Positions 25,031 through 57,478 of a stretch of DNA of 64,000 nt are shown here, piece by piece. The position numbers and the translations under genes are program-made. Origin of the DNA: Cymodocea nodosa. Lineage: Eukaryota; Streptophyta; Magnoliopsida; Alismatales; Cymodoceaceae. The DNA is taken from the NCBI GenBank assembly GCA_036874045.1, contig CM072336.1, forward strand, positions 13,573,001-13,637,000. The letters run 5' to 3'. How positions within the stretch are numbered: position 1 is the first letter of the stretch; every line of letters begins with the position of its first letter. The notes under the pieces are model-generated. The model saw only the letters and a program-made list of their open reading frames with translations. It was not told the DNA's origin and did not search any database.

Positions 25031-25092
25031 TTGTCGATTCTGTAAAATAAAAACAAAAATTTAGTAGAGACAAAAATTAACATAACTACTAC

Positions 25093-25165: not shown

Positions 25166-25225
25166 TAACTTAAAATAAAAATAAAAACATATATACATAC
25201 AGATAGTTGCTTCAGATATGCTGCT

Positions 25226-27941: not shown

Positions 27942-28127
27942 TTTACCTTAGATTTTTCAACCTATTTGATTTTAAATAGTCTAAAAACTTTAAAACAACT
28001 TGAGCCTTAAATCAATAGAGTTAAACGTATGCTCAAATATTAATTTCTGTTTAAAAACAAGGAACGTAGAATAAGCAATGATATTAAATAAATTGGTATC
28101 GATTTTATATCAAAGATTATTAACAAA

Positions 28128-28139
28128 GCTCTGATACCA
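28128..28139 (-). promoter_or_regulatory. Copia primer binding site (initiator Met tRNA)
   Basis: TGGTATCAGAGC on the minus strand, two bases after the LTR end CCTACA. This is the classical copia primer site, complementary to the 3' end of initiator Met tRNA. It fixes the LTR boundary and orientation. Confidence 0.92.
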
Positions 28140-28141
28140 CT

Positions 28142-29786
28142 TGTAGGATCGTATGGCTACATAAGAGGGGGGTGAATTGTGTATTTTTAATATTTTTTGA
28201 AATATAATTGAAACTTTAAAACTCAAAAATAAGTCAAGACATTGTTTTCATAAAATCAGTTTTATTCAAGGTTTCAATTACAATATACAATTCAATTCTC
28301 CTCAAAAATTGTAGATGCAATTATATTTCGATACCATGTATCATCTAAACAATTTCATTACTACAAACAGAGAAAACTAACTTGCGGAATTTAAAACTTT
28401 TCTCCCTGTTTGAGATCTTTCTTCTTCTTCTTTTTCTTCTTCAGCAATTCTTTAGTGACAAATATCTTGTCTTTTCATGCTTCACCGAATTTGCTTTCTT
28501 TTGATACTTCAAATCTTCAGTGACGAAAATCTTACCTTTTTATGCTTCACTGAACTTTCTTCCACTTGAGAGATTGTAAATCTTCAGTGACGAAAATCTT
28601 ACCTTTTTATGCTTCACTAAACTTTCTTCCACTTGAGAGATTTTCCCCGAGAAGGTGTTTTTTCATCCTTGAAAAAGATTTTTCTTTTGGTGTGCAGGGA
28701 TGGTTTAATCATTGAAAAGATTTTTCTTTTTGTGTGCAAGGATAAATTGATCAACGAGAATTCTATGCCTTTTATATTGTATCTTCATTTCATGCATATC
28801 CTTCACGTTTAACCACCACCAGTTTTCCACTTCTCCATGTCTTTTCTTTTTCCTTCATCGAAACACACACATTCTAACCCACGTTTATATTTCAAATTTT
28901 CTTTAATCATCAGTCCTGGATCTCTGAAAAATTTCCTACAAAATAAACTTTCTCGTCCAAAAGTTTTTCATCAATGTAATAAGAAGTCGTTACTTTAATG
29001 TTAACTAAACGAGTAACACAAGTATATATATAGCTTAACGTTTCTAACTTAACGAGTTCCTCATGTGCCATTTCACGTGACAAGTACTGTAGCTAACTCA
29101 ACGAACTATGTCCGTGGTGTTATGCTATCTCAACGAACCATCTCCGTTGTGTTATGATAACTCAACGAACCAGTAATAAACAAATGTTTTTATAATAAGA
29201 ATTTTACCACGTGCAAAAATAACAACTTAAGTTTATAACGCTAACCTAACGCGTTGCGTTAGTGTTCAATATAGCAACTCAACGCGTTTAGTTATGTTAA
29301 CTTAACGAGTTAAACATGTGCACCTCATGTGATACAATACAACATTCGTAACTTATAATTTCACCACGTGTATAACACTAACTTAACGAGTTCGTCTCTT
29401 CTTTTACTCACTAACTTAACGAGTTATCACGTGACCTATTTTAACCTTTAAGCCTTTAACTTAACGAGTTCTCACGTGACCTCTCTACAAACAAAACTCT
29501 AACTTAACGAGTTGTCTAAACGTGCACTGTTCATGATACAGAAGATATAACATTAAAACATATCATGCTTTTCAATAAAAACACACGTTAACTTAACGTT
29601 TAGCTCAATGAGAAATTAATGCAACGAAACGACTAGTTATTAACTTTAGATCCAATACAGACAAGTATTTATATCAGTAAGCTTTTTCTATATTAATTGA
29701 TGATTTTAATTTCTTTTCACAAGCAATAGTAATTGAGCAAATATGATTATTTTCATTCAGCACACATCATCAAAACAAAAATACTC
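28142..29786 (-). repeat. Copia 5' LTR within element N
   Basis: Ends (minus strand) CGATCCTACA before the primer site; begins near 29786 with a CAGTTGAGTATTTTTG stretch whose TG has decayed. U3-like part (28990-29600) is an array of CTAACTTAACGAGTT boxes alternating with CACGTG sites. The part 28450-28648 has three tandem units of about 67 bp. A segment at 29207-29262 is nearly identical to the Athila-like LTR at 21666-21721. Confidence 0.75.
28450..28648. repeat. Three tandem units of about 67 bp in the copia LTR
   Basis: The unit CTTCAGTGACGAAAATCTT...TTTATGCTTCACTGAAC occurs at 28515 and 28582 with almost no change and, more diverged, at 28450. A further pair of about 45-bp repeats (GAAAAAGATTTTTCTTTTGG) follows at 28665-28740. 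Confidence 0.75.
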
Positions 29787-30106
29787 AACTGTAAGTAAAT
29801 CTACCAGCTCTCAACACGTGTCAGCAGCAGTTTAAACATAAAATAACATTTCGGAGAGTTACAGGTATAACTATCCGATGCTTAGATGCATTTTCGGATA
29901 CTTAAGAATTTCACAGCCTGCAATTTACCGATAGTTCATAAATGTACTAAATTAACATTAATTCCCCAAAATTAAGCAGATTCTTCAATTAAAGCATATA
30001 ACAGTGCAATTATAACATAATGGCTTAATTCTCATATGATAAGCTAAATATTATGCAATTAACCATCATTTAACCGTTAATAATATGCACTTTTTCATTC
30101 TAAACA
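29787..30106 (-). repeat. Remnant of the 5' LTR of element N
   Basis: The first 320 bases of the LTR, starting TGTTTAGAATG at 30106, nearly identical to 21787-22098. It ends abruptly at the copia LTR. Confidence 0.85.
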
Positions 30107-31892: not shown

Positions 31893-33020
31893 ATGGAATT
31901 ACCACTAGATGCACTGAAATAAATACTAAATAATTTATCAACTAAAGATCTATACAGACTATGTTGTGTGTTGAAGTAAATTAAAGAATATGCCAGAGAA
32001 AAATATTTTCATGAAATGTAAGCTGTGAAGATGATTAATATGAAAGAGGGAGTTTTATGGAAATCATTTAATTATAGTTCAATCAGCTACGAATATCTGA
32101 ATATAGAAGAAACTATTGGAATTCCACCAAATTCATTGGAAGGAATAGGTCATATTATGAGAATAGATGAAAGATTTATCCTATATAGAACCAAACCAAG
32201 GTATGCTATTCTGTTTCCAGATATTTTTATTAGAAATTCTATTACTAGAGAAGAATGAAATATAGGAATACCTAATATGTTTGAAGTACCAACTGAAAAC
32301 TATGGATCAACATTGACATTTTCTAATAAGAATTCTATTATTCCTAACAAATTATATTATTGGAGACCAATAGGAAATTGGGATGAAGGATTATGCTTAA
32401 GTGTTTACAATTTTATGGATAGATCTCGGAATGAAAATATTATGATATATCTAGGAGAGAAAGCATTAGTTAACAATATACATGTGATACTTAATGGATA
32501 TATATATCTAGTCATGAATATATCAGTTGCATTTAGATCTAATCTATATATTGTGAGCATAGACTGTTATGATGATTATATAGAGATACTACCTATACCT
32601 AAAGATATAGCCGAACCATCAACTGCACAATATGATAAGATTCAACTAGGAGTATGGTATTATGAAGCTCATGATCCTACTCTATGTTTAGTTAGATGAT
32701 AGGATGAGCTAATGAAATTTCAAATATGGATTATGAAAGACCTAAATGAATGGACATGGGAAGAGGAATATATTGAAATATTTGTGGAAATAGAAACAAC
32801 TACATTATCTTGGAATAGAAAAGGATCACTTTCTGCATTTCATTTCATTAATGGTAACACACTTATATTTAGTATTGAGAATATACTACAAGTTCATAAA
32901 TTGAAAAGACAAGCAAATTACATTAAAATAGAATTAATAGCAAGAATAATTATACCTAAAGGTTTTGCTTGGATAGATATGTTTATTCCATTTGCCACTA
33001 CTTTGCAGTCATGTTCTTAA
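31893..33020 (+). pseudogene. F-box protein ORF of element A, broken
   Basis: Starts MELPLDALK and can be followed to the same C-terminus as in B and N (IPFATTLQSCS). Stops at several places (near 31918, 31978, 32020, 32257, 32697) and a frame change near 32700 disable it. The propeller-like segments (YYWRPIGNWDEGLCLSVYNF, LYIVSIDCYDDYIEILPIP) are well kept. Confidence 0.82.
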
Positions 33021-38652: not shown

Positions 38653-40722
38653 TATTTGGATCTCCAGCACGGCACCAGAAAACTTGATTGGTTACCTAGC
38701 AACGTGCTAGAAAAACTTGGATTTGTTAACTTCTGTTTTTACTTAGTTAATTTATCTTTATGCCTATATCATTGAATTCATTTTTAGAAGTAAACAAACA
38801 ACCTTTCACACAAATTAGATATTAATTCCAATTTGTATTTTAACTGCTAGTGCATAGTGTCTATTGTATTAGTGTGCAAGTACAGGTCGATCCCACAGGG
38901 AATTGCTTAAGAATTGCGAACTGTTCCATTTTTAACAATCAAATTTATATATTCAATAAGATCTCCGTTGAGTTATAGTTAACTCAACGGACTAAGTTTG
39001 TTGAGTTATGGCTAACTCAACGGACTAACCTTGTGGACTTAAGTTAACTCCACAAGTCTACCTTTCCTATTTAATACTGCTATGTATAGAGGAATTTGGC
39101 CAACCATTGGGTCGTTCCACAGATTGTAAATAACATCAATTAAGCTCTTTAATGTTAGTAAACACTAGATTTATCATTAGGCAATACTAACATTAAGATA
39201 ATTCAAACAGTGACCATTAAAATCTTTAAGTCTATTGAACGAACCAATTTCAGTAAATTGTAAAACTAAAACAAACATAAAACATTCACAACACTGACAA
39301 AGATAACATTAATCACGATACAAAACAAACAATACAATACTCAAATACAAAATACAAACACAGATAAGTTGTTTTTGGTATTTTTGTTTTGATATGAGCA
39401 TGAAAATGGGCGAAAGGTGAAATGTAAAGTAATCTCAGTCAATAGTAAATACTTCTGTCACTACATGCGACGCGATTACACCATTGAAAATTAAACCACT
39501 TACAATTCTGTCTCCTCTCCCTATAGAATCGTGAGTCCAGAATTGCAAGATGATCTCCTCTTCAGCATACAAGCATCAACCCGAAGTCAAGGCTAGAAGC
39601 TTTACGATCCCCTGAGATATGAGTCGGCGCTTGGTGAAAATGGCTTCCCTTCCCTCGACGCGATCACTCCTTACAGTGGTTGTCAAGCACTGTGTTTGGC
39701 TCGAAATCAGGAAAGTATCCTCACAGACCTCCAATGGTTGGTGATTATGGTGGGGGTGGTGATGGTTGGTGTGGTACTTTAGAGAATTGTCGACGCTGCT
39801 TATAGAAAGCTCGGTGATCCTCCTCTACACACACTGGCCACACCCATCAGCCACACACCTTTACTTTTTTTTTCTTCTTTTCTTTTATATTTCTTCAGTG
39901 GTAACTACTTCTGCTTGAATGATCCATTGGATTTCCTTCATTCATATCAACGACGATGATTTCTTCTCCCTTCGACAAGTGAATTCTTACGTGATACATG
40001 CGATCGTGGTTTTTTTCTTCCAACTGTTCTATTCCTGCAACCGCTACAGTGGCATATTAGAAAATAAATGGTCCATGGAGTTATAGATAACTCAACGAAC
40101 TTGTTTCGTTGATTTAACTATAAAACACGTGCATAAATTTAACTATCCGATGCTCAGATGCATTTCGGATACTTACAAACTTAACTATCCGATGCTCAGA
40201 TGCATTTCGGATAGTTACAAATAACTCACCGATATACAACTTAAGTCAATCTTCTAGAACATGACACGTGTCATCAGTAGTTTTATAATAAAGAAATATT
40301 TCAGAGAGTTACAAGTCTAACTATCTGATGCCTAGATGCATTTCGGATAGTTAGAGATAACTCGTCGAAAGTCCACTTATGTCATGCATTATGGTTTCGA
40401 CACGTGAACTTTAGGAAATAATAAAATATTCTTTTAAAACATAACTGTTCGGTAATTTAAACATAACTCTTTGGTACATTAAACATAACTGTTCGAAATA
40501 ACAGAAAATTCGAATACTTAAGAATTTCACAACCTACAATTTACCAACAGTTCAGAAATGCACTAAATTAACATTAATTCCCCGAAATTAAGCAGATTCT
40601 TTCATTAAAGCATATAACAGTGCAATTGTAACATACTGGCTTAATTCTCATATGATAAGCTAAATATTATGCAATTAACCATCATATAACTGTTAATATT
40701 ATGCACTTTTTCATTCTAAACA
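38653..40722 (-). repeat. 3' LTR of element B
   Basis: About 2.07 kb. Starts TGTTTAGAATG after the purine tract. U3 has repeated GATGCTCAGATGCATTTCGG boxes (40140-40215 and 40320-40350), a TTCTAGAAC plus GACACGTGTC pair (40250-40275), and GTTGAGTTA modules (38960-39050, 40075-40125). The end has two PBS-like extra copies (38670-38725); the terminal TG (plus strand) has become TA. Confidence 0.87.
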
Positions 40723-40735
40723 CTCCCCCCATACC
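40723..40735 (-). promoter_or_regulatory. Polypurine tract of element B
   Basis: GTATGGGGGGAG on the minus strand, immediately before the LTR start. Confidence 0.85.
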
Positions 40736-42476
40736 TAAATTTTGCTAGTCCCTTAGCAAACTAAGACCTAATTAATTGATCTTTCTAAAAGTGCTAGAAT
40801 TAATTCTTCCTTTTTTCTTTTGTTCAGCATAAGAACTTGTATTATTATATAGATATTCTATATGTTTCAGTAATTTGTTTTAACATTGTTTTCTCCTCTT
40901 CAACCTGCAAATATACTTAGAATATATGCAAATTACATACAAAGTATATCATCATCACATAGGTGTTAATTATATTATCGTTTGTTCTTCTTTTCATCAT
41001 CTGTCATCTTGAATTTTCCAATAAGATTTCTAGAAGAAATTTCAACAACATACGAATCAAAGTACAATCCAATTCAAGATGATTAAGACAAGTAGAATAA
41101 AGAATTGTATCTCCATAAAACAACTTCAAAAGTCAATTCTTAGATTCATATTTCAACAATTCTAGATAACAAAAAATATACTCAATTCAAAAGATATCTA
41201 TATTTCACAAAACACTTGTATCTTTTCAAAATAGTATATGTATTTTTGTACTTTAAAAGTTAATTTGACAAGTTTGAACCATACAAGAGCTTTCTAATGT
41301 ACCCATGTAACGAGCTTTCAGTCAACAATCCCAGATCTGATTAGGATCTTAGGTTGCTAGATTCCAAGAGTCCTTTTTCAGGTCAACAATCCTTACATAC
41401 CTATCTACTCAAGTACGAAAGGCTTGTGATCAAACAAGTCAATAAACTCTCAAAATTATTATAATTTTTTTTCTCTTTTTTTTTTTACAACACTAATCAC
41501 ATACTATATATGTACGTATTTCATTAATATAGATGCAAAAAAACACCAATCTCATATAGTCCTACTTCTATTATCTACTGAAAATATGAATCTATATCAA
41601 TAAGCTCATACTTTTTCTATAGTTTAATAAGATCTACGCATAAATCATTCTACAAGTTTAATCAGTCAAATTAAATGTATATTTAATCATATGTGTTTCA
41701 TTTAATCTAGAATTCACATTTCAGCTCTTTCAGGTCTTCAGATAATTTACTGATTTTTCATTAAGCATTCTGATTTCATTTTAAGATCGTGAAACTGTTA
41801 TACTCATGAAATTCAGAAAAAACATAAGATACTATATATAGATTTGCATAAATAGTAAATTCTATAGCATCTTATATAGCCTTCTAAATATAACATTCAA
41901 GCAATTACAGTTTATAAAAAATTTTACAGTCTCAATTATCGGATAGTTATAGCAAGTTCATAAAAAAAATTTCAATTTCCTCAAAATTTGCAGTACCATT
42001 CTAATTCCTTTAATTAACAAACTTACATGGTTGTTACTTTAATTACCTCCCCCCCATACCTACATTTCTCATTGTCCTCAATGTAAAAGATTTGACAATA
42101 AATACGGTAATTGTAGCAGGCATGAATACAGTTTCGTTGATTTAGCACCTAACTCAACGAATGAGTTTAAATCTAAATTCAAGATAAGTAATCAGTTACA
42201 TACCTTGTTTCATTTGTATCTCCTTCTGCATGTTCTGATTTTTGATTCTGAAAAAGTTTTTATTCACAGATAAAAGCAGAATATATAACAAAATAATAGT
42301 TAACAGATATTTATAAATCATTGTCTTGTGTGGAACCCAGGCTCCTACGCCTTTGGTGGCTCACAAGCAAGCTAGTTGGTTTCCCAGCACAGATACCAAC
42401 AAACTGGATGATATTTTTTTTTTTTTCTCTAAAAGTAAATGCAGACTACACAACAAAAAAAACACAGAATCATACT
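40736..42476 (-). other. 3' untranslated region of element B with second purine tract
   Basis: Non-coding. Second tract GGTATGGGGGGGAGG at 42046-42060 (minus), preceded by the TGAGGACAATGAGAAATG stretch. GTGAGCCACCAAAGGC block near 42350. Partial GTTGAGTTA box at 42150-42160. T-rich runs near 41467-41490 and 42414-42427. Confidence 0.72.
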
Positions 42477-43613
42477 TTAAGAACATGACTGAAAAGTAGA
42501 AACAAATGGAATAAACGTGTCAGTCCAAGCAAACTTTTTAGGCATAATTCTTCTTGCTATCAATTCTATTTCAATGCAGTCTATTTTCCTTTTTAATTTG
42601 TAAACTTGCAGTATGTTATCAATACTAAATATAAGTGTATTTCCATTAATGAAATGAAATGCAAAAAGAGATCCTCTTCCGTTCCAAGATAGTGTAGCTG
42701 TTTCTATTTCTACATCTATTTCAATATATTCCTCTTCCCACGTCCATTCATTTAGGTCTTTTATAATCCATATTTGAAATTTCTTCAATTCATCCCACCA
42801 TCTTATTAAACATAAAGTAGGATCATCATATTCATTATACCACATTCCTAATTGAATTTTATCATATTCTGCAGATGGTGGTTTAGCTATATCACTTGGT
42901 ATAAGCAAAATTTCTATATATTCATCATAACTATCTATGCTTACTATGTATAAATCAGATCTAAATGCAACTGATATATCTGTGACTAGATATATATATC
43001 CATCAAGCATGACATGCATGCTGTTAATTAATGATTTTTGCCCTAGATATATCATAGTGTTTTCAGTCCAAGATCTATTAAGAAAATTATACACACTCAA
43101 GCATAAATCTTCATCCCAATTTCCTGTAGGTCTCCAATAATATAATTTTCTAGGAATGGTCGAATTTTTATCAGAAAATATTAAAGCTGGCCCATAATTT
43201 TCAGTTGGTACTTCATATCTATTAGGTCTTCCTATATTCCATTCTTCTCTTGTGATAGGATTTCTAATCAAAATATCAGGTAATAGAATTGCATACCTTG
43301 GTTTGGTCCTGTTTATAATTAATCCTTCATCCATCCCCATAATATGATCTATTCCTTTTAATGTATTGCGTGGAATTCCAGTAATTTCTTCCATATTCAG
43401 ATATTCATGGCTAATTGAACTACAATTAAATGACTTCCATATGAATCCATCTCTAATCTTAGTCATTTTTGCAGCTTGTAGTCCATGAAAATATTTTTCT
43501 CTAAGACAATCTTTAATTTCCTTTGATACACAACACAGCCTGCACAGATCTTTAGCTAACAAGTTACTTAGTACTTCCCTTAGTGCATCCTGCGATAATT
43601 GCATCAATTCCAT
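42477..43613 (-). CDS. F-box protein carried by element B, open reading frame intact
   Basis: 378 codons without interruption. Residues 1-45 form the F-box (MELMQLSQDALREVLSNL, DLCRLCCVSKEIKDCL), expected to bind SKP1 as the adaptor of an SCF ubiquitin ligase. Residues 60-378 show repeated strand-like segments with Trp/Tyr (GFIWKSFN, KLYYWRPTGNWDEDL, YIVSIDSYDEYIEIL, IRWWDELKKFQIWI, LNEWTWEEEYIEI), like an F-box-associated propeller for target recognition. No membrane segment or signal peptide. It lies 212 bases after gag, separated by the inverted-repeat module, and no other promoter is obvious. The target is unknown. The frame is open in a copy whose gag and pol are broken. Alternatively it is simply a young or lucky pseudogene. 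Confidence 0.75.
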   Translation of the reverse strand: MELMQLSQDALREVLSNLLAKDLCRLCCVSKEIKDCLREKYFHGLQAAKMTKIRDGFIWKSFNCSSISHEYLNMEEITGIPRNTLKGIDHIMGMDEGLIINRTKPRYAILLPDILIRNPITREEWNIGRPNRYEVPTENYGPALIFSDKNSTIPRKLYYWRPTGNWDEDLCLSVYNFLNRSWTENTMIYLGQKSLINSMHVMLDGYIYLVTDISVAFRSDLYIVSIDSYDEYIEILLIPSDIAKPPSAEYDKIQLGMWYNEYDDPTLCLIRWWDELKKFQIWIIKDLNEWTWEEEYIEIDVEIETATLSWNGRGSLFAFHFINGNTLIFSIDNILQVYKLKRKIDCIEIELIARRIMPKKFAWTDTFIPFVSTFQSCS

Positions 43614-43689
43614 TTGTTGATTCTATATAACATAAACACAAAAATTTTAGCAAAGACAAAAATTAACATAACTACTGCACACCCTTGTG

Positions 43690-43755
43690 GAGTTAGGGCA
43701 TAACTCAACGGACTAAGTTCGTTGAGTTAAGTAATAACTCTACGATACTATTAAC
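43690..43755. repeat. Inverted-repeat module between gag and F-box (element B)
   Basis: TAACTCAACG (43701-43710) and CGTTGAGTTA (43720-43729) form a perfect 10-bp stem with a 9-base loop GACTAAGTT; outer arms GTGGAGTTA and TAACTCTACG flank it. In the RNA it would be a strong two-tier hairpin just before the F-box start. Confidence 0.82.
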
Positions 43756-43824
43756 TACAAATAAGCCTACATTTTTTTTTTTTTTACTTACTATATTATA
43801 CATAGTTACTTCAGTTATACTACT

Positions 43825-45174
43825 TCATTCAGCTATCCTCCTAGAAGAGGTATCAATTTCATTAATAGTTCTATTGACAAGGTTAGGTACTTCTTGCATT
43901 AGCAATCTTCCAATAGGTCTAACTTCTATTGATTCTTTCTGTCTAGGGGGTATATTTCTATTTATATTTTGATTTTGAATTGCAGCATTTCCAAATACAA
44001 AATCTAGACGATTGTTTAATTGTTGGATTATCTTTTCTAATTTCTCTATTCTAGATCCTTATTCAATTAATGCTTCATAACTTATATTCTTGTCATTTAT
44101 ATTTTCTCCTCCCTGAAAATTGTTGTTTCTCCAAGATAAATTCGGGTGATTTCTCCAATTAGGATTATAAGAATTTCCAAAGTTATATTTTTGGTTTCTA
44201 GCATAAATAATATCTAGATCATTAATGTTTGCATTCTTTTCTGCTAGCTTTTGATTTAATGATAACTCTTCTATTTTCTTTGTTAATTCAGTTACTTTAA
44301 CTTTAAGCATAGTGTTTGAATCTATTTCATGCATTCCCCTTGGCAATATTCTTTTATCTACAATAACTTCAGCTGAGTTCTCCCATTGTGTAGTTTTTTT
44401 TGTAAAGTTTTCTAAGTATGCCCATGCTTCTTCACTACACAATTTTAAAAATCTATTCTGACAAGTAGATTCTAATAAAGATTTTGTTGAAACATCTATG
44501 CCTTCATAAATTATACCTATCAATTGTGCTTTACTCATTGCATGATGTGGACATTGAGTTAGTAAATCTTTAAATCTTTCAAAATATTTCCAAAATGATT
44601 CTCCCTGTTTTTGGCTACACATAAATATTTCTTTTTTCTTTTTAATCATTTGATGTGTTGGATAATATTTTTCCAGAAAAATAGAGCAAAATTCAGTCTA
44701 TGTAGAAATTGAATCAGGCGACAGAGTATATAACCATCTCTTAGCTGTGTCTTTTAAAGCAAAAGGAATATATCTAAGTTTAATAGCATCTATACTCATG
44801 TTCAGCATTTTCATCATTTGACAAACTTCGTTAAATTCTCTAAAGAAATAATAGGCATCCTCTCTTTCTAATCCATGAAAATGTGGCAATTGACTAATAT
44901 AATTAAATTTTAGTTCAAACCTATCTCCCTCAAAGTTTGGCAATCGAATACATGAAGGTTCATCAACTAATTCAGGGTACAGAATTTCTCCTAATTGTTT
45001 TTCTACTAGAGCACCCATATCTACGTTCTCTTTTAAAGAAAGGTTAGCTACACCCCAAAGGATTTCGTTAAAGTCCAATTCAAAAAATGTTTCAGTACGC
45101 CTCTATGTTGAATATTCCTAGGTAGGTGTTCTTACTAATCGTTTAGTACTAAGAGAACGAGTCCATGTGCTCAT
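43825..45174 (-). pseudogene. Capsid-type gag of element B
   Basis: About 450 codons from an ATG at 45174 (MSTWTRSLSTKRLVRTP) to a stop at 43825-43827, with few breaks: stops near 45121, 45106, 44697 (a Trp codon turned TAG) and 44059. Domain order: N-terminal arm, capsid domain (FEGDRFELKFNYISQLPHFH, LRYIPFALKDTAKRWLYTL, FWKYFERFKDLLTQCPHH), coiled coil (VTELTKKIEELSLNQKLAEK), NPNWRNHPNLSWRNNNF and a second coiled coil. No zinc knuckle; that sits in the separate ORF at 55340. It would form the shell of virus-like particles in the cytoplasm. Confidence 0.86.
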
Positions 45175-46137
45175 AAATAAAATAGCAAAAGATTAATTAC
45201 ATACTAGTTTGAAGTTTTCCATTCAGTAAATATTTGTTGACGGATGAAGTTGAATCAGTTGCTTCTCCTTCTAGTTCCCCAACGCATTCTCCTTTCTTTC
45301 AAAAGTGCTAGTAACTCGTAAATAACATTCTGTTCTATATATATAATGCACATCCATAAAGTAAATAAATCTTGTTGCAAGAACGTGTCTTGTAACGTGC
45401 AGCGTGGTTCCTATTTTTATGGGTACGTGTACCACTACTAATTTCAAATTTTGGTAACCGCTAAGCCGACGAAGTTTCATTCATGGTTAAAAGAATAACT
45501 GTTCTGCTTAATCCACGAACTAACCTCGTTGAGTTACAGATAACTCAACGGAACAACGTTGGTTACTGTTGCTAACTCCACGGACTAACCTCGTTAAGTT
45601 ACAGATAACTCAACGGAGTGATCTTATATTATATTATTGACCTCGTGGAGTTAAGGTTAACTCAACGGACTAACCTCATTGAGTTAACACTTAGCAACTT
45701 CTAAGTCTACTCCTCGTAAGTACCTCTATTTTTTTTTTTTTCCTGCACTCTGCTAACTGAAATAAAGTTAAATACCTATCATTAATGCAGCATTCTAATC
45801 AAAATTCGTTTAAATCTGAACACTATATAAATATTTAATTTGCAGTTCATTTCATGTTATGCAAAATTTACATTTTACCTTACAGCATGTAGATATTTTC
45901 AAGCATCTATTCTTTAATCCTGTCATTCAGCAAACTGTAAATCTTTTTAAATATTCATGCATAATGTTCCACAAATTATATAACATTCAATATAGTTCAT
46001 CCATTTCATCATTCTAAACACGCATGAAAAATATATCTAAAAAACATATTCATTCATATGAATAAATTACAATACAATCATATCAGATATTTTTCATACA
46101 AATATATACAAGTACAAGTAGACGAACAATACAATTT
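45175..46137 (-). other. Leader between ORF3 and gag of element B
   Basis: Non-coding. It contains a large inverted-repeat module at 45480-45700 with several GTTGAGTTACAGATAACTC pairs, the GCACGTTACAAGACACG stretch (45385-45405) shared with A, and an AT-rich part at 45790-46130. Confidence 0.7.
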
Positions 46138-47814
46138 AATCTCTATTCCTAAGTTCATCTACTTCCTTCTGGAGTTTTTCTATTTGTTACTCTAATTGTT
46201 CTATCCTTTCTACAACTCCAATAATGCCTCCAGAAGGTACAGATACTTCAGTTGTAGCATAATTTCTGTATTCTTTCACTGAAATGGTTCTTGATCTTAT
46301 CCTTTTAGATGTCCATTTCGTGAAATCAATACAGTCTACCATCAATATAGGTATCAAATCTCCATAAAATAATTTCTTCTTTGCAGACTTCATTTTGGAT
46401 AGGAAGACTTGACACCAATTAACTTGAATTATGTTCACAACTGCATAAGTGGCTCATTTTTCAAATTGACTCAATTCAATGTCATGGCCCAGTCGTTGGT
46501 AGACGTTTTTAATCAAAATGTTAGCTATCATGTGTGCTTTACCATTTAAATGCTTCAGCCTATTTAATAATGGCGCACCAGGATTGATAGCCAAACTGTC
46601 CTTGATTTCCTGCTCTGTCCATTCAACGGTAGTTGTGCTTTCCAAAATTTCTTTTCCTTCATTCTTCAATCCAAGAATGTTGTGAAGAAGCTCTAGTGTT
46701 ATCTATACATCAACTTCCTCCACGTTGGAAATTAATTGTCCTTCTTCTTCTCTTAAATTAGCATAAAAGCAGGGCACTAGATTTTCATATATTGCATGCC
46801 CTTTCTGTTGAGAAATAAATTGTAGTAGACCCTGGAACTCAAATAATTCCTTGATTTCTTACATTCCATCCCAATTTACTAGTCTTCTGTATATGATATC
46901 ATAACCCCTAATCTCTTGGTATTTATTATAAGCTTCCTAACTCCAAAAGTGTACTTCATTCAGAACTGTTACTTCAGTTGGGTCAGGAATGTGACTTTGT
47001 TGCTCTAGAGGGGTTTGTTCTTGATCTTCCTCTTCCACAGGCTGAACTTGAACTTGCTGAAAATATTCTACAGATTCCTGAACATTTGCTTCTGCTTTTG
47101 TCTATAGTGGTGAGCCGGTAGAACTCTCCACTCTGTCTTAAAGTGTTTCATTAAATTCAGTCAAATCTGCAAAGTCATTTTTGTCCATATGGCTTTGTTC
47201 AGCTTCTTGTTCATTCTCTATTCTTTCTTCTTCCTCCTAACTACCAATCTGCATTGTCACTATTCTTTCTAATTCTTTGGCAGATTGGGATGGAGTCATG
47301 GGCAATTCAGTTTCTATCCTATTTTCTGTTTCTTCTTCTTGTATAGGCTGCAGACTAATTTCAACCTGTTTTTCTTCTTCTCTTTGTTCTTGTTGCAGCT
47401 CCTCCTGCTCCTCAGAATCAGATAGCAGGTTTACAAAATTTATCTTTGCAAGCCCTACTGACATTTGCATTTCAAATTTAATCTCATCGTGATATTCAGA
47501 CACTATCTCTTTTCCTTTCCTTTTTCTGATTAATTGTGTTTGGTCTTCCTCTTCCTTAAATCCACAAAAATAGGCTCTACAGGCCTTTGAGTCATAGGTA
47601 CTGGCTCTTCCTGTTTAACTTTTTCAATATTTGCTGGTCTCGAAGGACTAGCTTCAGCTTCTCCTCTTGCAGCAAATCTGACAATGGTTCTTTGATGTTG
47701 TTCCACTTTGATTTTATATTGGGCTTTCAACTTTTCTACAGCCCTCTTTTTGTAAAGTGCATCAAACACTAGGTGTGCTTTAGCCACTACCAAATCTCTG
47801 ATTCTCCTTGGTTT

Positions 47815-49583
47815 TCGTTAGGACCCTAGTATTTTGATAATGCAAAAACCTATGTGAGGAAACCAAATTGTATTTCACAGATATGATAGCTCAGCAAAAG
47901 ATCAGAAAGTAGATGAACAGATGGAGAAAGATTCAGAAGATACTGCTATAGAGCTACAGGAAAATTGGACAGTTACAGGTCTAAGTATCTGAAGAGCAAG
48001 TTTAAAGTAACAGCAATACTATCGGACAGTTAGAAGAATAACTATCAAAAATTATAAAGCCTTCGGAGAGTTATGAAAGGCAGTTGGTTGAATGATTGGA
48101 GAGTTAAGGAGTTAACTATCCGAAAGCAAAAGGAAAATCGAAAAGTTAGAAAGGTTATCCAAAATTTAAGTCATTCAATTAACCACGTGTAGAAATTCAG
48201 AACAGAAGCTTAAAGAAATTTTCGGAGAGTTAGGAAGATAACTATCCAACTTTTTCGATAAGTTACAGGTATAACTTTCTGGAACTTAAGTTATCCTATT
48301 ACGCACGTGCAGAATGGAGAAGATGGTAGTTAAAAGCTTAAAAGGAAAAATCGGAGAGTTAGATAACTATCCAAAATTTCAAGAGAGTTTCAGTGAATCA
48401 CTATTTAACTATTCGAAACTTAAGTCATTGAATTTCCCACGTGCAGAAATCCAAACAGAAGCTTAAAAGGAAAATTAGAAAGTTACTAGAGATAACTATC
48501 CGAAATCTTGAAGCGTTTCGATGAGTTACAGGTATAACAATCCGAAACTTAAGTCAGTCTTTTATGCACGTGCTGAATTGAAGCAATCGTAAATTTAACG
48601 AAGGGTTACTGTAGTTAACTATTTGCCAGTTAAGTAACAGTTCGGTAAGTTGCAGCTACAAGTATCCGATTGAATGACAGCTCGCATTGTATGATCTGGA
48701 ATCCTACATGATAGAAAGACTTAAGTGATCTTTCGGTGAGTTACAAGCATTCTTCGGAGAGTTACACAGCTAACTATCCGAAAGGTTAAGAAAATCGGAA
48801 GGATATCTTGAAATATCTTTCTGAATGGTAACTTACCGTATTTGGGACTGAAGTCAAATCAAGTACAGCAGAATAAATCTGTTGAGGAGAAAATATGATC
48901 GTTGGATATTCAAGCATATATACAGTCAGATCATTCAGTATTCAAAAAGAGCTTACAAGTGAGATTACAGATACAATTACATACAAAGATACAGTATACA
49001 TTGCAGATCAATTACTGATATAGAAGAAAGTTCAAATTCAGTTCAACAAAGAATCGATTGAAAGCTAGATTTACAAGAAGATTCTTAAAGCTCTCCATTT
49101 GCTAAAAGTCTGATCCAAGAAGGATCATTTGGTTCGTGGCTTCAACCTGAAAGCTTCATTCAATTGTTGATTTGAGTTTCGACCTGAAAACTCAAGAGGT
49201 TGGTTTTCTGGAGTTTATACCTGAAAACTTCTAAGTGTTGGTTTTCTAGAGTTTATACCTGAAAACTTCTGAGTGTTGGTTTTCTGGAGTTTATACCTAA
49301 AAACTTCTGTGTGGTTGGTTCTTGCTTCGACTTGAAAGCAAGTGTATAAGTGTTGAGACACTTAGTGAAGCCCAAGTGACCCTTGGGGGTGGACTAGCCG
49401 AGTTGGTGAACCACCTAAAATTCTCTTGTGTTTCTTACCTTTATTTCCGTTGTGCATGATATTTTTATCTGATTATTACTTGTGAAAACTAATTAATCAA
49501 ATTAGTTATTAATTAATCAAATTAGTTAATATTCACACTATTCTCCATTCACCCCCCTCTGGTGAAGCCATTCATTCCTAACA
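47815..49583 (-). mobile_element. Solo LTR E (copia-like) inside ORF3 of element B
   Basis: Minus strand begins TGTTAGGAATG with GAGGGGGGTGAATGG shortly after, and ends AATACTAGGGTCCTAAC. Flanked by GGTTT(T) at 47810-47815 and 49584-49589. The flanks rejoin to the ORF3 frame (VEVGK / NQGES, as VQVGK / SQGNS in A). The interior (47985-48790) has the same box array as D and F. No coding part, so a solo LTR. Confidence 0.82.
48100..48800. repeat. Tandem units of about 130 bp in LTR E
   Basis: Units begin near 48262, 48403 and 48530, each with AACTATCCGAAACTTAAGTCA-like start, a CACGTGCAGAA site, an AAGCTTAAA stretch and a closing GGAGAGTTAGATAACTATCC. Older partial units flank them. Confidence 0.72.
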
Positions 49584-50279
49584 GGTTTTTCCCAACTTCA
49601 ACCAGTCCTTGGAATTCTCTTAATTCCTCTTCAGTTGAAGGCCCCATAACTACCACCCTTTCTAATGGTTTAGGAAGTGGATTTGAAGGTTCAGGCTGTT
49701 GTTCCTCAAGAACAGGTCTTTCAGCAGTCGGCCCCTCTTGTCCTTCAGTTGCCTCTTCTTCATTTTCTTTCCTTTCTTGCTCCCAAATCGCCCATTTAGC
49801 TCGTCTACAAATTCATCTTTTGAACCAGAGCCGGGACTTACGTTGGATTAATTCTAAGGTAACTTCATTGTTTGGCCTTATTTTTCTTTCCTTACTAACA
49901 TCAATTTCTATTGCTACTCTGATTCTTGTTTCCATTATCTAGGGTATTTGTATACCCAAATCTATTAAAACTCTTCTGAAGTTGAAAAGTTCAGATTCTA
50001 CCTTTTGTAGTTCTTTTTTTCTTGTCGTATTTCTAATTTTCTGCCTCGTGTGCCATTCCTCTGATTCTTTTAGAAATTCTAATGTATCAATAGGATCTTC
50101 CCAGAATTCGGGCATCATCTTCCTCATCGTCGAATTACACAATGACACGAAATTGCTCTGATCTTTCTATTCTAAGTTCTAATTGATCTGTCGAATAACG
50201 CCCCCAAAACCCTAGGTTTTAAAATAAACCCTAAGTTTAGGCGAGTAAACGGGTCATTTCCCGAACCAACTCTCGCTCT

Positions 50280-50408
50280 CTCATCCGTGGAATCACAGAT
50301 AACTCCACGGAATAAGTCCGTGGACTTAACTACAGTACTCTGTTGACTAACTCAAGAGAGTAAGCTCGTTGAGTTAAGCGTAACTCAACGGACCTCCCGT
50401 ACAGATAG

Positions 50409-50445
<37 letters not shown>
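50280..50445. repeat. Integrase-ORF3 module and trinucleotide run (element B)
   Basis: CGTTGAGTTA (50367-50376) and TAACTCAACG (50381-50390) form a perfect 10-bp stem with a 4-base loop; a GTGGA...TCCACGG pair precedes at 50285-50310. An ATA/TAA run lies at 50411-50443. Same arrangement as in A at 16625-17060. Confidence 0.8.
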
Positions 50446-50446
<1 letters not shown>

Positions 50447-50559
50447 GAGATAATAGTTTTTTTTTTCTTCGATTTTTATTGGTTTAACTGATACTATGTT
50501 TCGGTCAAACTGAATTTTTTTTTCAGTTGAACCGATACTATGTTTCGATAAAACCAAAT

Positions 50560-52060
50560 TTTTTTACTAAAAATTAATATAGATTTTTTATGTTCTAGTC
50601 ATACCGATGGATCTAGTCGGTTGAATTGCAACAATTTTTTTTTTAATAAAAATGAAAATAAAATAAAAACTGATTTCTTACTGAGTAAAGCTCGAGTAGT
50701 CCTCTACTCTTACTTCTTCTATAATTCCAAAGGATCTTTTTGGTATTTTCAAAATAGGTCTAAGTCTTTGTCCATTTACTTTAAATATATTCTGATTTTT
50801 CGGATTTTCAATCTCAATAGCTCCATAGGGAAAAATATTTCGAATTATATAAGGTCATGCCCATCTAGATCTTAATTTTTTTGGATGGTTATGGAGTCTA
50901 GTCATGTAAAGATATACTTCTTGTCCTATTTCAAATCTTTTTGGAATAATTTTCCTATCATGCTAGAATTTCATTTTCTCTTTTTCCCTTATAGTCTTCG
51001 AATAAGCTTCATTCCTAAATTTTTCTAATTCAATCAATTGTAATTTTCTAATTTCAGCAGCTTGATTCAAATTAGTGTTCAGAGTTTTTAATGCCCAATA
51101 AGCTTTATGTTCTATCTCAACTAGTAAATGACAACTTTTTCCATATACTAGCCTAAAAGGTGACATACCTAAGCTTGTCTTATAAGCAGTTCTATATAAG
51201 CCCAAAGTGCATCTATCAATCTATTAGCCCAATCTATTCTAGTAGGATTTACTACTTTTTCTAAGATTAACTTAATTTGTTTGTTAGCACTTTCTACTTG
51301 TCCACTTGTTTGCGGATGATATGATGTTGCAATTTTGTGGTTTACTCCATATTTCTTCATTAAGGCTTCAAAACTTCTATTACAGAAATGAGTTCCTCTA
51401 TCACTGATAATAGCTTTAAGTATTCCAAATCTAGCAAATATATTGGTTCTTATAAATTATATTACCACTTTGTTGTCATTAGTTTTTGTAGGAATAGCTC
51501 CTATCCATTTAGATACATAATCCACCCCCAACAATATGTAATTAAATTGATTAGACATAGAAAATGAACCCATAAAACCTATTCCCCACACATCAAAGAT
51601 TTCAACCTCAACAATAGGATTAAGAGGCATCATATTCCTCTTTGATATTCTTTCTATTTGTTGACATCTTAAACAACTTAAGCAATATTTATGAGCATCT
51701 TTGAATAGTGTTGGCCAATAAAATCTACATTGTAGAATTTTTGCAGCAGTTTTCCCTGAGCCAAAATGCCCTCCACAAGCTTGGTCATGACAGAAAAACA
51801 ATATGCTCTGATATTCAGTTTCTAGAACACACCTCCTTAAAACTAGATCAAGACATTTCTTAAATAAGTATGGGTCTTCCCAATAGTAATATTTTACTCT
51901 TGAGAAAAATAATTTCTTATCCTGTCTATTCCAATCCTTAGGTGTTAAACCAGTAACTAAGTAATTAACTATGTCTATATACCAAGGCATTGTGTTGATG
52001 GTCATTAATTGTTCATCAAGAAAATTATCTTTAATTTCAATATTTGATTTTACTATTTGT
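50560..52060 (-). pseudogene. Integrase of element B, broken
   Basis: Zinc-binding part intact ([11 protein letters not shown] with CLSCLRC, near 51790-51650). In the core the first catalytic Asp is Gly (GIGFMG, near 51580), the second motif ISDRGTHF (near 51395) and the Glu motif HPQTSGQVESANKQ (near 51320-51285) are kept. A stop at 51454 and frame changes near 51200 and 50950 break it. The C-terminal part runs to about 50690. Confidence 0.86.
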
Positions 52061-52410
52061 AATCTTGATAAATGATCTGCTACTACATTCTCACAACCTT
52101 TTTTATCTTTAATTTCAAGATCAAATTCTTGTAATAATAATATCCATCGGATCAATCTAGGCTTAGTTTCTTTTTTTGCTATTAAGTGTTTTAAAGCTGC
52201 ATGATCTGTGTATACTATTACTTTAGCTCCAATCAGATATGATCTAAACTTTTCCAAGACAAACACAACAGCTAATAGTTCTTTTTCAGTAGTTGTGTAA
52301 TTAACTTGAGCATCATTTAAGATTTTGCTTGCATAATGAATCACTCTAGGAGATTTTTCTATCTTCTGTCCCAACACTACTCCTACAGCAAAATCAGATG
52401 CATCGCACAT
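52061..52410 (-). pseudogene. RNase H of element B
   Basis: [38 protein letters not shown] and [10 protein letters not shown] show the Asp, Glu and Asp of the active site. The frame is open and runs on into the integrase; only the upstream RT is broken. Confidence 0.88.
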
Positions 52411-52428
52411 TAATTCAAATGGATGGCT

Positions 52429-53620
52429 CTAATCAGGTGCTTGAATTATAAGAGTTGAAATTAAGCTAGTTTTAAGTCTAAAAAATGCTTTCATGCAATT
52501 TTTATCAAAGTTAAATGGGACATCTTTTAATAGATTATTTAAAAGTCTAGCTATTTTGCTAAAGTCTTTAATAAATCTTCTATAAAAACCAGCATATCCT
52601 AGAAATGATCTAATATATTTTACTGATTTAGGTTCTGGTAGATTAGCTTTATCTACTTCCAACCCTTTCTTAGAAACAACATGCCCTAAGACTATTCTTT
52701 GTTTTAACCATGAAGTGACATTTTTCCCAATTTAGAAACAGATTTTTTTCCACACAGCATTTTAATATTTGGTCTAAATTTTTTAAACACACTTCATATG
52801 AAGTTCCATAAATAGTAAAATCATCCATAAATATTTCTAAAAAATCTTCAATCATTCTAGTAAATATGCCCTGCATACACCTTTGAAAGGTGGTTGGTGC
52901 ATTGTATAATCCGAATGGCATTCTCTTAAAAGCATAAGTTCCATTAGGACAAGTGAAAGTTGTTTTCTCTTGATCCATAAGTTCCATTAGTCATTCTACT
53001 AGAATTTGATTATAACCTGAATACCCATCTAGGAAACAAAAATATTCTTGCCTTGCTAATCTTTCCAGCATTTGATCTATAAAAGGTAAGGGAAAATGAT
53101 CTTTCCTAGTCACAACATTCAGCTTTCTATAGTCTATACATACTCTCCAACCTGATTGAATTCTAGTAGGTATCAAGTCTTGACTTTCATTCCTAATAAC
53201 TGTTAATCCTGATTTCTTGGGAACTACATGGATTGGGCTAACCCACGAGCTATCAGAAATCGGATAAATTATATCATTATCTAACCATTTTACTATTTCT
53301 TTCCTAACTACTTCTTTAAGGTTTGGATTTAATCTCCTCTTAGGAATTCTAACAGGTTTTGCTTTCTCTTCTAAATATATATAGTGACAGCATAAAGTTG
53401 AACTTAACCCTTTTATATCAGTCATAGTCCATCCTATTGCTTCTTTATAACTTTTCACTACATCTTTTAATTTAGCTATTTGATCCTCTTTTAAATCTGA
53501 AGCAATAATGATTAGACAGGTTCGTTTCTCTTCCAGAAATATATAGGTTAATTCAGGAGGTAAAAGTTTTAATTCTAAATGTTGCCCACCAGAAGCTAAA
53601 GCTCCTAATTGAACATCATC
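52429..53620 (-). pseudogene. Reverse transcriptase of element B
   Basis: Upstream half in the long frame 54367-52991 (IDYRKLNVVTRKDHFPLPFI, FLDGYSGYNQ). A local insertion and stop at 52988 separate it from the second half, which has FMDD in IFMDDFTIYG (near 52825) and FLGYAGFYRRFIKDFSKIA (near 52580). A frameshift near 52672 lies between. Confidence 0.88.
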
Positions 53621-54367
53621 ATTTTCTAAATTAATTTCTTCCAGATCTCCTTTTATATTTATGTTTTCACTTTCCTCTAAAGTTTCAGAATTGATTTGCC
53701 TATTTAATTCTTCTTGAATCACATCATCTAACATATCTCCTTCATCCTCTAAAAAGTCTATGGTATGTAAGGACATTTCTAACTCCTCAAACCTTTCTGG
53801 TTTGAAAATATTTAATTGAGTATTCTCATTACCATATGCTAACTTCATTATTCTAGTTTTACAATTTATAACAGCCCCTGATGTTGCTAAAAATGGCCTT
53901 CCCAAAATTAAAGATGTATCACTATTTTTATGCTTAATTTGTTGGGAATCCAAAATTACAATATCAATAGGATATATAAAGTTTTTGATTTTAATTAAGA
54001 CATCCTCTATTTTTCCTCTAGGGTATCTTATACTTCTATCAGCTAATTGAATAACCGTACTAGTCAGAGTTAAGCCTTCTAATCCTAAGGATGCAAATAT
54101 ATCACTTGGCATAACATTTATACCTACACCTAAGTCTATTAAGGTTCTTTCTAGAATGGTATTTCCTATGATGCATGATATAACAGGGATTCTAGAATTA
54201 GATAACTTTTTAGGAATTTGTGGCAGAAATAGGGAACTACTTTGCTCAGCTAAAAAGACCTTTCTAAGAACTTTTTGCTCTCTTTTCTTAGTACACCAAT
54301 CCTTCAAAAATTTAGCATAAGGTGGCATTTTCTGCAATAGATCTAACGAAGGAATGTTAACTTGCAC
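53621..54367 (-). pseudogene. Protease region of element B, frame open
   Basis: Same open frame as the RT start: LLQKMPPYAKFLKDWCTKKR, then LIDLGVGINVMPSDIF with the catalytic Asp (near 54130), LILGRPFLATSGAVINC (near 53880), then an acidic spacer to RT. In this copy protease and first half of RT are undamaged for 458 codons, which makes it the best preserved pol segment of the window. Confidence 0.85.
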
Positions 54368-54394
54368 TTTTTCAAAAATTTCTTTGATTTTTTC

Positions 54395-55345
54395 TTATTT
54401 TTCAGGTATTGTTTGTTGTAATCTTTCAGGATAGGGTGCTAAAGATTGTGATTTAAAAGATTCTTTTTCTTTCGTTTGATTTGTTTGATCATTTTTAGCC
54501 TCATTAGCAGATTCAGATTGTTCTTCAGTGATTTCTAGATTTTCAGCTATTACATTTTCATTATCATTTTGATTTTTGTTCTTATCCACCTTCATATTAT
54601 TTTCATTTTGAGTTCTTGATGGTATATCAATTCCAAATCTTAATGTTACACATACATCTTCTAGATTTTCGTTACTCCCATGATGTTTTGGTATATCATT
54701 TTCGTGATTATGATCTTCAATTGTTTTTAGTTTTAAAGTGCATTCTTTAAATTCTCTTTAAATTAGTATTTTCTTTTAGCTGTGTATTTTGCAAATTATA
54801 CAGATCTATAACATTATAATTTTCATTGTCCTGTTGCATAACTTGCATTTTCATTGTATATTCGTCCAATGCTTTTAGTTTTCTTTCCAGATCATCTAAT
54901 CTCATTGCATTCAATTTTTGATCAATTTTCATTATGGTTTTTTCAGTTTCGTAAATTATATTCATTTTAGGTTCTAAATATGCTTCCTTATAGTTTAATT
55001 GGTTGACTTCTTGTTGCTGACATATAAAGTATTCTAGTTTGTCTAGGTTTTGCTCTATACTACGCTCTAGTCTGTCATACCTATCCCAAACTTCAGTCTC
55101 TCAACATCTTACACATTCTATACTGACCATCAGTTGGATAAACTATAGGATTCTCATACTCGACTCTATTATATTGAGGATAATTCATTTGTTGTTCATG
55201 GGATCTAGCCATCTGCAAATGTCTCAGTTTCAAACAGTCAGAAATGTCGCGTCCTTCAGAATTGCAGAATTCACATATGCTAACTATAGGTTTCAGAAAT
55301 CTTTAAGCATAAGCATATGTCATATTCTCAATTATAGAAGAAAAC
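54395..55345 (-). pseudogene. Zinc-knuckle and linker ORF of element B, broken
   Basis: Starts about 60 bases after the primer site. Knuckle reads CEFCNSEGRDISDC (His replaced by Arg). It then has RSHEQQMNYPQYNR, the coiled coil MRLDDLERKLKALDEYTMKM and TLRFGIDIP (near 54620, equivalent to ITLRSG), followed by the acidic linker to the protease. Stops near 55300, 55100 and 54745. Confidence 0.78.
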
Positions 55346-55401
55346 ACACAACACTCTAGCTATTAAAACGAAACAGCTCTAACGGTTGCTTATATGAATT
55401 C

Positions 55402-55419
55402 TCCGGCAATGGCGCTAGA
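55402..55419 (-). promoter_or_regulatory. Primer binding site of element B
   Basis: CTAGCGCCATTGCCGGAG on the minus strand, ten bases after the LTR end CCAAACA; tRNA-Asp type. Confidence 0.8.
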
Positions 55420-55424
55420 AAACT

Positions 55425-57478
55425 TGTTTGGATCTCCAACACGGCACCAAAAAACTTGATTGGTTACCCAGCAACGTGCCAAAAAAACTTGGATTTGTTA
55501 ACTTCTGTTTTTACTTAGTTAATTTATCTTTATGCCTATATCACTGAATTCATTTTTAGAAGTAAACAAACAACCTTTCACACAAATTAGATATTAATTC
55601 CAATTTGTATTTTAACTACAAGTGCACAGTGTCTATTGTATTAGTGTGCAAGTACAAGTCGATCCCATAGGAAATTTCTTAAGAATTGCGAACTGTTCCA
55701 TTTTTAACAATCAAATTTATATATTCAATAAGATCTCCGTTGAGTTACAGTTAACTCAACAGACTAAGTTCGTTGAGTTATGGCTAACTTAACGGACTAA
55801 CCTCGTGGACTTAAGTTAACTCCACGAGCCTGCCTTTCCTATTTAATACTACTATTTACAGAGGAATTCGGCCAACCATTGGGTCGTTCCACAGATTGTA
55901 AATAACATCAATTAAACTATTTAATGTTAGTAAACACTAGATTTATCATTAGGCAATACTAACATTCAGATAATTCAAACAGTAACCATTAAAATCTTTA
56001 AGTCTATTGAACAAACCAATTTCAGTAAACTGTAAAACTAAAACAAACATAAAACATTCACAACACTGACAAAGATAACATTAATCACGATACAAAACAA
56101 ACAATACAATACCCAAATACAAAATACAAACACAGATAAGTTGTTTTTGGTATTTTTGTTTTGATATGAGCATGAAAATGGGCGAAAGGTGAAATGTAAA
56201 GTAATCTCAGTCGATAGTAAAAACTTCTGTCGCTACATGCGACACGATTACACCACTGAAAATTAAACCACTTACAATTCTGTCTCCTCTCCCTATAGAA
56301 TCGTAAGTCCAGAATTGCAAGATGATCTCTTTAGCATACAGGCATCAACCCGAAGCTAAGGCTAGAAGCTTTACAATCTCTTGAGATATGAGTCGGTGCT
56401 TGGTGAAAATGGCTTCCCTTCCCGCAACGCGATCACTCCTCACAGTGGTTGTCAGGCACTATGTTTGGCTCGGAATCGTCCCGACATCAAGAAAGTATCC
56501 ATAGACCTCTGATGGTTGGTGATTATGGTGGTGGTGGTGATGGTTGGTGTAGTACTTTAGAGAATTGCCTACGCTACCTGCAAAAAGCTCGATGATCCTC
56601 CTCTGCACACACTGGTCACACCCATCAGCCACACACCTTTACTTCTTTTTTCTTATTTTCTTTTATATTTCTTCAGTGGTAACTACTTCTGCTTGAATAA
56701 TCCGTTGGATTTCCTTCATTCATATCAACGACAATGATTTCTTCTCCCTTCGACGAGTGAATTTCTGCGTGATATGTGCGATTGTGGTTTTTTTCTTCCA
56801 ACTGTTCTGTTCCTGCAACTGCTACAGTGGAATATTAGAAAATAAATGGTCCATGGAGTTGCAGATAACTCAACGGACTTGCTTCATTGATTTAACTATA
56901 AAACACGTGCATAAATTTAACTATCTAATGCTGAGATGCATTTCAGATACTTACAAAATTAACTATCTGATGCTCAGATGCATATCGGATAGTTACAGAT
57001 AACTCACTAATATATAACTTAAGTCAATCTTCCAGAACACGACACATGTCATCAGTAGTTTTATAATAAAGAAATATTTTGGAGAGTTACAAGCCTAACT
57101 ATCTGATGCCTAGATGCATTTTGAATAGTTAGAGATAACTCACCGAAAGTCCACTTAAGTTATACATTATGGTTTCAACATGTGTACTTCAGGAAATAAT
57201 AAAATATTCTTTTAAAACATAACTATTCGGTAATTTAAACATAACTGTCCGAAATAATAGAAATTTTGGATACTTAAGAATTTCACAGCCTGTAATTTAT
57301 CGACAATTCAGAAATGTACTAAATTAACATTAATTCCTTGAAATTAAGCAGATTCTTTCATTAAAGCATATAACAGTGCAATTGTAACATACTGGCTTAA
57401 TTCTCATATGATAAGCTAAATATTATGCAATTAACCATCATAAAACCATTAATATTATGCACTTTTTCATTCTAAACA
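55425..57478 (-). repeat. 5' LTR of element B
   Basis: About 2.05 kb, colinear with the 3' LTR; a 215-bp sample near 56845-57050 differs at about 19 positions by eye, mostly transitions. Two PBS-like extra copies at its 3' end (55434-55495). GTTGAGTTA modules at 55735-55825 and 56850-56885. Confidence 0.87.

Follow-up and report, generated by a model that had tools for sequence, protein, structure and literature searches.

A putatively spliced F-box gene at the env-like position of an Athila-like retrotransposon family in Cymodocea nodosa

An F-box gene was found between gag and the 3' LTR of retrotransposons in a 64,000-nucleotide stretch of Cymodocea nodosa DNA (contig CM072336.1, positions 13,573,001 to 13,637,000; hereafter the window) and at many other places in the genome. 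We favour, with some reserve, the explanation that it belongs to an Athila-like Ty3/gypsy family, that it takes the place of an env-like gene, and that its product, an F-box/FBA-like protein made from a spliced RNA, serves the element as an SCF receptor. What is new is the arrangement, as gag lies 3' of pol and, judged by its borders, inside an intron that ends 9 nt before the F-box ATG. The genome searched comprised 374.6 Mb in 28 contigs, and the genomic loci that were read carry L-numbers.

The F-box gene and its elements in the window

The F-box open reading frame of element N (42477..43613, minus strand) begins with ATG and comprises 378 codons without internal stop; it would form exon 2 of a spliced gene. 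The preliminary description of its product as an F-box protein was borne out by Pfam, as the F-box model (PF00646) matched residues 4-42 with 29.4 bits (E 6.6e-7) at a curated cut-off of 20.5. All 11 members of the set A2 matched this model at E≤0.1, the best with E 3.2e-11. An FBA_1-like stretch (PF07734; residues 201-317) scored 14.4 bits (E 0.035), below the cut-off of 21.1, and was matched at E≤0.1 by five of the 11 members (best E 0.026). None of the 1148 candidates obtained from a large protein collection reached E≤0.001, and a PDB sequence search gave no credible match (sole match E 0.68). Given its F-box domain, the protein is predicted to bind SKP1 and to act in SCF ubiquitination.

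Self-comparison of the window, reading frames and element edges resolved a nest of elements. Element N is bounded by a 5' LTR (55427..57478, minus strand; inner edge approximate) and a 3' LTR (38655..40722, minus strand; outer edge approximate). Its primer binding site (PBS; 55400..55417, minus strand) has three mismatches to the tRNA-Asp PBS, and its polypurine tract (PPT; GGTATGGGGGGA; 40723..40740, minus strand) lies just before the 3' LTR. Element A (20173..30106 from LTR to LTR, minus strand) sits inside element B and has the target site duplication (TSD) GGCAT on both sides (20168-20172 and 30107-30111). Its LTRs are at 30106-29787 (partial) and 22098-20173, and its 5' part has been replaced by a nested copia-like element. 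The F-box frame of A (24095..25030, minus strand; F-box E 6.2e-10) stops after 311 amino acids, and homology continues to the same C-terminus as in N. Element B, on the plus strand, runs from an LTR at 8205 via pol (11980-16184) to 20172, where A interrupts it, and resumes beyond A with gag, F-box and then two LTR starts (34882 and 35795); the LTR at 8205 pairs with that at 35795-37391. Its F-box is decayed (31893..33017, plus strand; six in-frame stops), and its splice donor is retained at 30258. In element C, approximately the last 140 codons of the F-box gene (59994..60428, minus strand) are joined by a deletion to the RT region. The gene is thus found, as had been proposed, at the same place in N, A, B and, truncated, in C.

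An LTR beginning TGTTTAG follows the F-box gene at a distance of about 1.8 kb in N, A and C and is preceded there by a PPT-like purine tract (e.g. GGTATGGGGGAAG). N, B and C also contain pol, located 5' of gag (N, B) or 5' of the deletion (C). A tRNA-Asp-type PBS was recognised in N, B and C with two to four mismatches to the motif, and by reading with one mismatch in L006. Five-bp TSDs flank two copies (GGCAT in A, AACAC in L006). The family thereby shows the LTR pair, PBS, PPT and 5-bp TSD of LTR retrotransposons, the PPT and PBS in window copies and the PBS in L006. Divergence between paired LTRs (K2P) was 0.016 for A (319 aligned bases), 0.046 for the genomic copy L006, 0.070 for N and 0.127 for B; only if a rate of 1.3e-8 applies would these values place the insertions at about 0.6 to 5 My ago.

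Several further features were observed in the window. The 3' end of B (33983-35849, plus strand) contains a tandem duplication of about 0.95 kb that creates the second LTR start. At the end of the N 5' LTR (55400-55500, minus strand) three PBS-like repeats stand in a row (TTTTTTGGCACG, TTTTTTGGTGCCG and TTTTCTAGCGCC), the first two of which (TTTTTTGGCACG, TTTTTTGGTGCCG) are also present at the end of the N 3' LTR. Short inverted motifs of the type GTTGAGTTA...TAACTCAAC occur in the LTR (55740-55810, minus strand) and in the gag-F-box spacer (43700-43740, minus strand). ARAGORN predicted a tRNA-Asp (anticodon atc), which may be a pseudo-tRNA, on the minus strand at 3743-3828. A copia-gag stretch in A (27941-26487) was considered as a second cargo and rejected, since it belongs to the nested element; nesting is indicated because L031 and L052 share the terminus at 29789 and because other loci have the element at different breakpoints. 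This copia-like element (window 29789-26500; Retrotran_gag_2, zinc knuckle) stands outside the F-box family and is repeatedly nested in it. It was also seen in L031, L039, L044, L052, L054 and L056, in several of them near the F-box end or the 3' region, and an insertion preference is possible.

Gene order and occurrence in the genome

In N, pol (50966..54394, minus strand) lies upstream of gag and gave strong RNase H and integrase zinc-binding matches; its protease and RT matches stayed below the Pfam cut-off. The RH-IN frame of the broken pol, part of which was scanned, matched only the RT_RNaseH models and Integrase_H2C2. The gag (capsid) frame (44062..45102, minus strand) is broken by one stop and matches Retrotrans_gag in its second half (E 2.8e-8). 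The 5' ORF of N (start at 54398..55321, minus strand) begins shortly after the PBS and contains, by reading, a decayed zinc knuckle and no capsid match; the knuckle is intact in C (CEFCNLEGHNISNC, 62536-62204), where Pfam gave only E 0.11. Capsid matches in the window adjoin the F-box only, and none was found between PBS and protease. With capsid confined to the 3' side of pol, the window elements depart from the Athila order GAG-PROT-RT-RH-INT. The order pol, gag, F-box was repeated in L001 and L010.

L006 (172-9389), complete between TSDs AACAC, contains gag and an F-box gene with one stop and lacks pol; the F-box has therefore been kept even where pol was lost. L006 and L017 are short forms (LTR-gag-F-box-LTR, no pol seen) that were presumably mobilised in trans.

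The interval between integrase and gag of N (45400..50960, minus strand) holds short ORFs and repeats. Longer ORFs homologous to about 46450-47200 (minus strand) of the window occupy this interval in L018 (1022-1669) and L019 (1019-1618). They match Transposase_32 (PF20167) weakly (best E 0.002; 18.5 bits, the cut-off being 45), and the window's own integrase-gag pieces gave no match to this model. Tandem repeats common to the elements were located at 48088-48717, 11078-11720 and 63209-63861, in the integrase-gag interval or near the end of C.

A protein search of the genome yielded 7015 first-look candidates, of which 109, the window included, were scored; all had E<1e-222, and they were distributed over 19 of the 28 contigs. 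By table count, 14 of these F-box copies are free of stops and 95 have stops. Twenty loci of 9.9 kb each were taken from Pfam F-box hits, mostly for long open frames and thus not at random, and 19 of them hold the gene with 65.6-87% identity over the main match. A second set of 20 loci (F-box hits ranked 2-4 and 6-22; 1.3 kb each) was read for the gene only; every one of them contains at least part of it, with 59-89% identity. Altogether, 39 of the 40 genomic F-box loci read carry the element gene, whole or in part. L014 contains a plant-like host F-box gene. Of 150 F-box hits scored, the top 22 include 21 that represent the element gene, so the element would inflate any count of F-box genes made in this genome.

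A sample of 3' ends was chosen without regard to the F-box, namely the best 39 matches to the PPT/3'-LTR junction of N outside the window (40 scored of 5323 candidates); at 94-96% identity to N, they are N-like copies. At 24 of the 39 junctions, an F-box gene, whole or in part, was found in the expected 1.5-kb slot. The 15 misses fell into the following groups: (i) eight show another element, which is an LTR in L024 and L037 and copia-like in L031, L039, L044, L052, L054 and L056, and which does not prove that an F-box was formerly there; (ii) four show shifted 3' sequence only (L026) or partial family sequence (L022, L041, L049); (iii) three (L021, L038, L043) show no feature that accounts for the miss. 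An extra sense ORF of at least 250 codons between pol and the 3' LTR, here one of 378 codons, is hence present at least in part in most members sampled. The preliminary description had named absence from most family members as the observation that would count against a cargo gene, and such absence was not found.

The distance from the F-box stop to the 3' LTR start is 1457-1859 bp in 14 of the 19 loci and 845 bp in L020; no full LTR start was detected downstream of the F-box in L004, L007, L009 and L013. Homology runs unbroken from gag across the F-box gene into the LTR. Among 18 copies, pairwise F-box distances were correlated with those of gag (Mantel r 0.97; r 0.90 when the two deepest copies were left out; p≤0.0005). 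On contig CM072336.1 (8752573-9714509), 13 element F-box copies lie about 59-139 kb apart, all of them on the minus strand, each with a frame of 405 aa and a score of 758-764 bits; judged from spacing and scores, the cluster resembles a large array of tandem or segmental copies.

Probable splicing across gag

In N, gag is contained in a predicted GT-AG intron of 1582 nt (43623..45204, minus strand; donor ACTA|GTATGT, acceptor TTATATAG). The end of the upstream exon (45205..45222, minus strand) has an in-frame ATG (ATGGAAAACTTCAAACTA). A 9-nt spacer (AATCAACAA; 43614..43622, minus strand) separates the splice acceptor from the F-box ATG and leaves the exon-1 ATG in frame with the F-box, and translation of N may start nine codons upstream, in another exon. 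The upstream-exon ATG is in frame with the F-box also in L002, L003 and L005 (MESFRLNRQ-MELMQL). An N-terminal extension in all copies was considered and rejected: exon 1 is in frame in N and in copies of the young clade, which have the 9-nt spacer, whereas in many older copies the spacer measures 11 nt and the upstream ATG is out of frame.

Five of the 39 genomic copies lack gag exactly at the intron junction. Four of them (L002, L003, L005, L009) were among the first 19 loci with the gene, and L067 was the sole one in the next 20. The gag-less junction reads CTTCAGACTG|AATCRACAAATGG. Gag-bearing copies continue from the left part into GTATGTAATTAATC, and just before the right part they have a T-rich tract and then, in most cases, ACAG or ATAG. 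The donor GT was present in all 15 rows reaching the donor site. Of 37 unspliced contexts, counting the three of the window, 31 had the acceptor AG. At up to two mismatches, the genome contains 202 occurrences of the joined 28-base pattern, compared with 0 for the control; these occurrences are copies and not separate events. Deletion junctions in L010, L005, L007, L015 and L006 were also considered as introns and rejected, none having both GT and AG.

In the tree, L009 pairs with the unspliced L007 (96/90), apart from the other gag-less copies, and L002, L003 and L005 fall into one unresolved clade with the unspliced copies L006, L017, L001, L010 and window A. The separate placement of L009 therefore points to at least two independent losses of gag. 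Because gag was lost at the exact junction in at least two lineages, and because 202 joined sequences stand against 0 in the control, we infer that the F-box RNA is produced, as for retroviral env, by removal of the GT-AG intron holding gag. Spliced RNAs appear to have been reverse transcribed back into the genome at times.

Selection, proposed function and known systems

Under the favoured explanation, unspliced RNA would give rise to Gag and spliced RNA to the F-box protein, so that a single splice choice would decide between particle protein and ligase receptor. The F-box would bind host SKP1, and the C-terminal part would select a protein whose ubiquitination by SCF would benefit the element. 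P0-type viral suppressors are F-box proteins that degrade ARGONAUTE, and by analogy with polerovirus P0 the likeliest target would be a host silencing or restriction factor. The element's own Gag is the next likeliest candidate, in which case the splicing switch would be coupled to particle timing. A bolder version is offered tentatively: the lineage would have been rearranged to pol-gag-F-box, would make an SCF receptor of its own only when gag is spliced out, and would have had this receptor selected as a counter-defence against host silencing, in at least 200 copies.

A special case of the favoured explanation, according to which the F-box protein would ubiquitinate Gag or pol products of the element itself and gag splicing would switch between particles and shut-down, strikes us as unlikely. 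Gag and the F-box protein as alternative products of one splice choice, and the adjacency and co-inheritance of their genes, are consistent with it, but any element gene is expected to be co-inherited.

Selection bears on a different reading, namely that a host F-box retrogene was captured once and has been carried by chance as a passenger of no use to the element. Captured genes are known in LTR elements (PMC3726574), stops occur in 95 of the 109 scored copies, and close copies evolve as a passenger might: in ten close pairs dN/dS was 0.26-0.70 and the codon-position test was significant in none (p 0.06-0.69). For N-A, dN/dS of 0.52 was not discriminated from wrong-frame controls (0.43 and 0.65). 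Among copies mostly chosen for open F-box frames, pooled dN/dS was 0.42 for the F-box, fairly close to the values of its wrong frames (0.52 and 0.75) and of non-coding controls (0.53-0.66), which were higher, and above those of PR-RT (0.26) and RH-IN (0.24; four copies each); the two parts of gag gave 0.24 and 0.43. Deep pairs, by contrast, argue against a passenger. Over a dS of about 0.5, the frame was retained in N-B (dN/dS 0.26-0.27; wrong-frame controls 0.62 and 0.85; codon-position differences 60/46/102, p 5e-6) and in N-L020 (0.34; p 4e-4), and values for B-L020 and A-L020 were 0.44 and 0.45, with codon-position tests on deep pairs giving p 5e-6 to 0.01. Non-coding controls (0.53-0.66) were without a codon-position pattern. 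B and L020, the deep copies, have six stops each. We read these data as purifying selection on the F-box frame in the deeper history of the family, probably laxer than on pol, with copies decaying after insertion. In addition, donor, acceptor and start are conserved across subfamilies, and the F-box is retained in the pol-less L006 and in gag-less spliced copies, so that a mere passenger appears rather improbable.

That the gag-less copies go back to one ordinary deletion spread by transposition, with no spliced RNA involved, is very improbable: the shared clade of L002, L003 and L005 may indeed reflect one event, but L009 groups with L007 away from them, and the missing segment is bounded precisely by GT...AG, the AG being preceded by a T-rich tract. 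Numerous as plant F-box genes are, a host F-box family beside which many retrotransposons landed by chance can practically be dismissed in view of the order and spacing that 14 of 19 loci have in common, the continuous gag-F-box-LTR homology and the TSDs that flank the LTRs in A and L006. There is strong support for the earlier view that the gene is part of the element and was not a host gene struck by chance, namely the 39 of 40 loci, co-inheritance with gag, TSD-bounded LTR pairs and deep-pair selection.

No report of an F-box gene carried throughout a family of LTR retrotransposons was found in a search by title and start of abstract, with most subscription papers and all preprints outside its scope. 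The term F-box is absent from the whole text of PMC7264820, from the main text of PMC3726574, and from the searched parts of PMC6317226, PMC11963269, PMC5408684 and PMC13317346. The supposition that such cargo is undescribed thus held within the literature searched, with a single F-box 'LTR-gene' reported for Thlaspi (PMC8764390). A survey of 13,863 elements states that only 21.4% of extra-ORF proteins resembled a known domain, gives the Ty3/gypsy order as GAG-PROT-RT-RH-INT and removed other orders as likely mispredictions (PMC6317226); pol-gag-F-box elements may therefore have been overlooked. The genome described here apparently preserves both copies of the spliced RNA and a gene order which that survey discarded. 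The role of extra genes in plant LTR retrotransposons is an open question, and a clear F-box domain points to one host pathway and makes the question testable.

Captured host genes (Bs1, rice/sorghum, Thlaspi) are similar in that a host-type gene lies between LTRs, but transduced genes are present in one or a few copies (PMC7264820), whereas 109 scored copies and 202 spliced junctions were found here. In Bagy-2 and in bdelloid rotifer elements, a 3' extra ORF is likewise expressed from spliced RNA (PMC7264820 and PMC5408684); those ORFs are env-like, DEDDy or GDSL, whereas here an F-box gene follows an apparent intron holding gag.

Genetic parasites that encode an F-box protein include poleroviruses (P0) and nanoviruses (Clink); the likeness is in the F-box alone, as the present protein is plant FBA-like and resides in a retrotransposon. 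If anti-silencing, here a conjecture, were true, VANC of VANDAL DNA transposons would be a parallel as a transposon gene directed against host silencing, albeit a different protein in another element class.

A tRNA-Asp PBS is typical of the Athila lineage, and the family shares this type with Athila/Calypso (OTA non-chromovirus Ty3/gypsy), along with long LTRs, Retrotrans_gag and a pol with RNase H and integrase. A further likeness is the long region between pol and the 3' LTR with an extra sense ORF (PMC1142308 and PMC6317226), and an 'apparent retrogene' after pol is mentioned there for Tpb1-1, an Athila relative (PMC1142308). Archaeal-type RNase H marks Tat, according to PMC6317226. Unlike in Athila/Calypso, the extra ORF of the present family encodes an F-box protein and not an env-like protein or Athila ORF-1, and gag is located 3' of pol.
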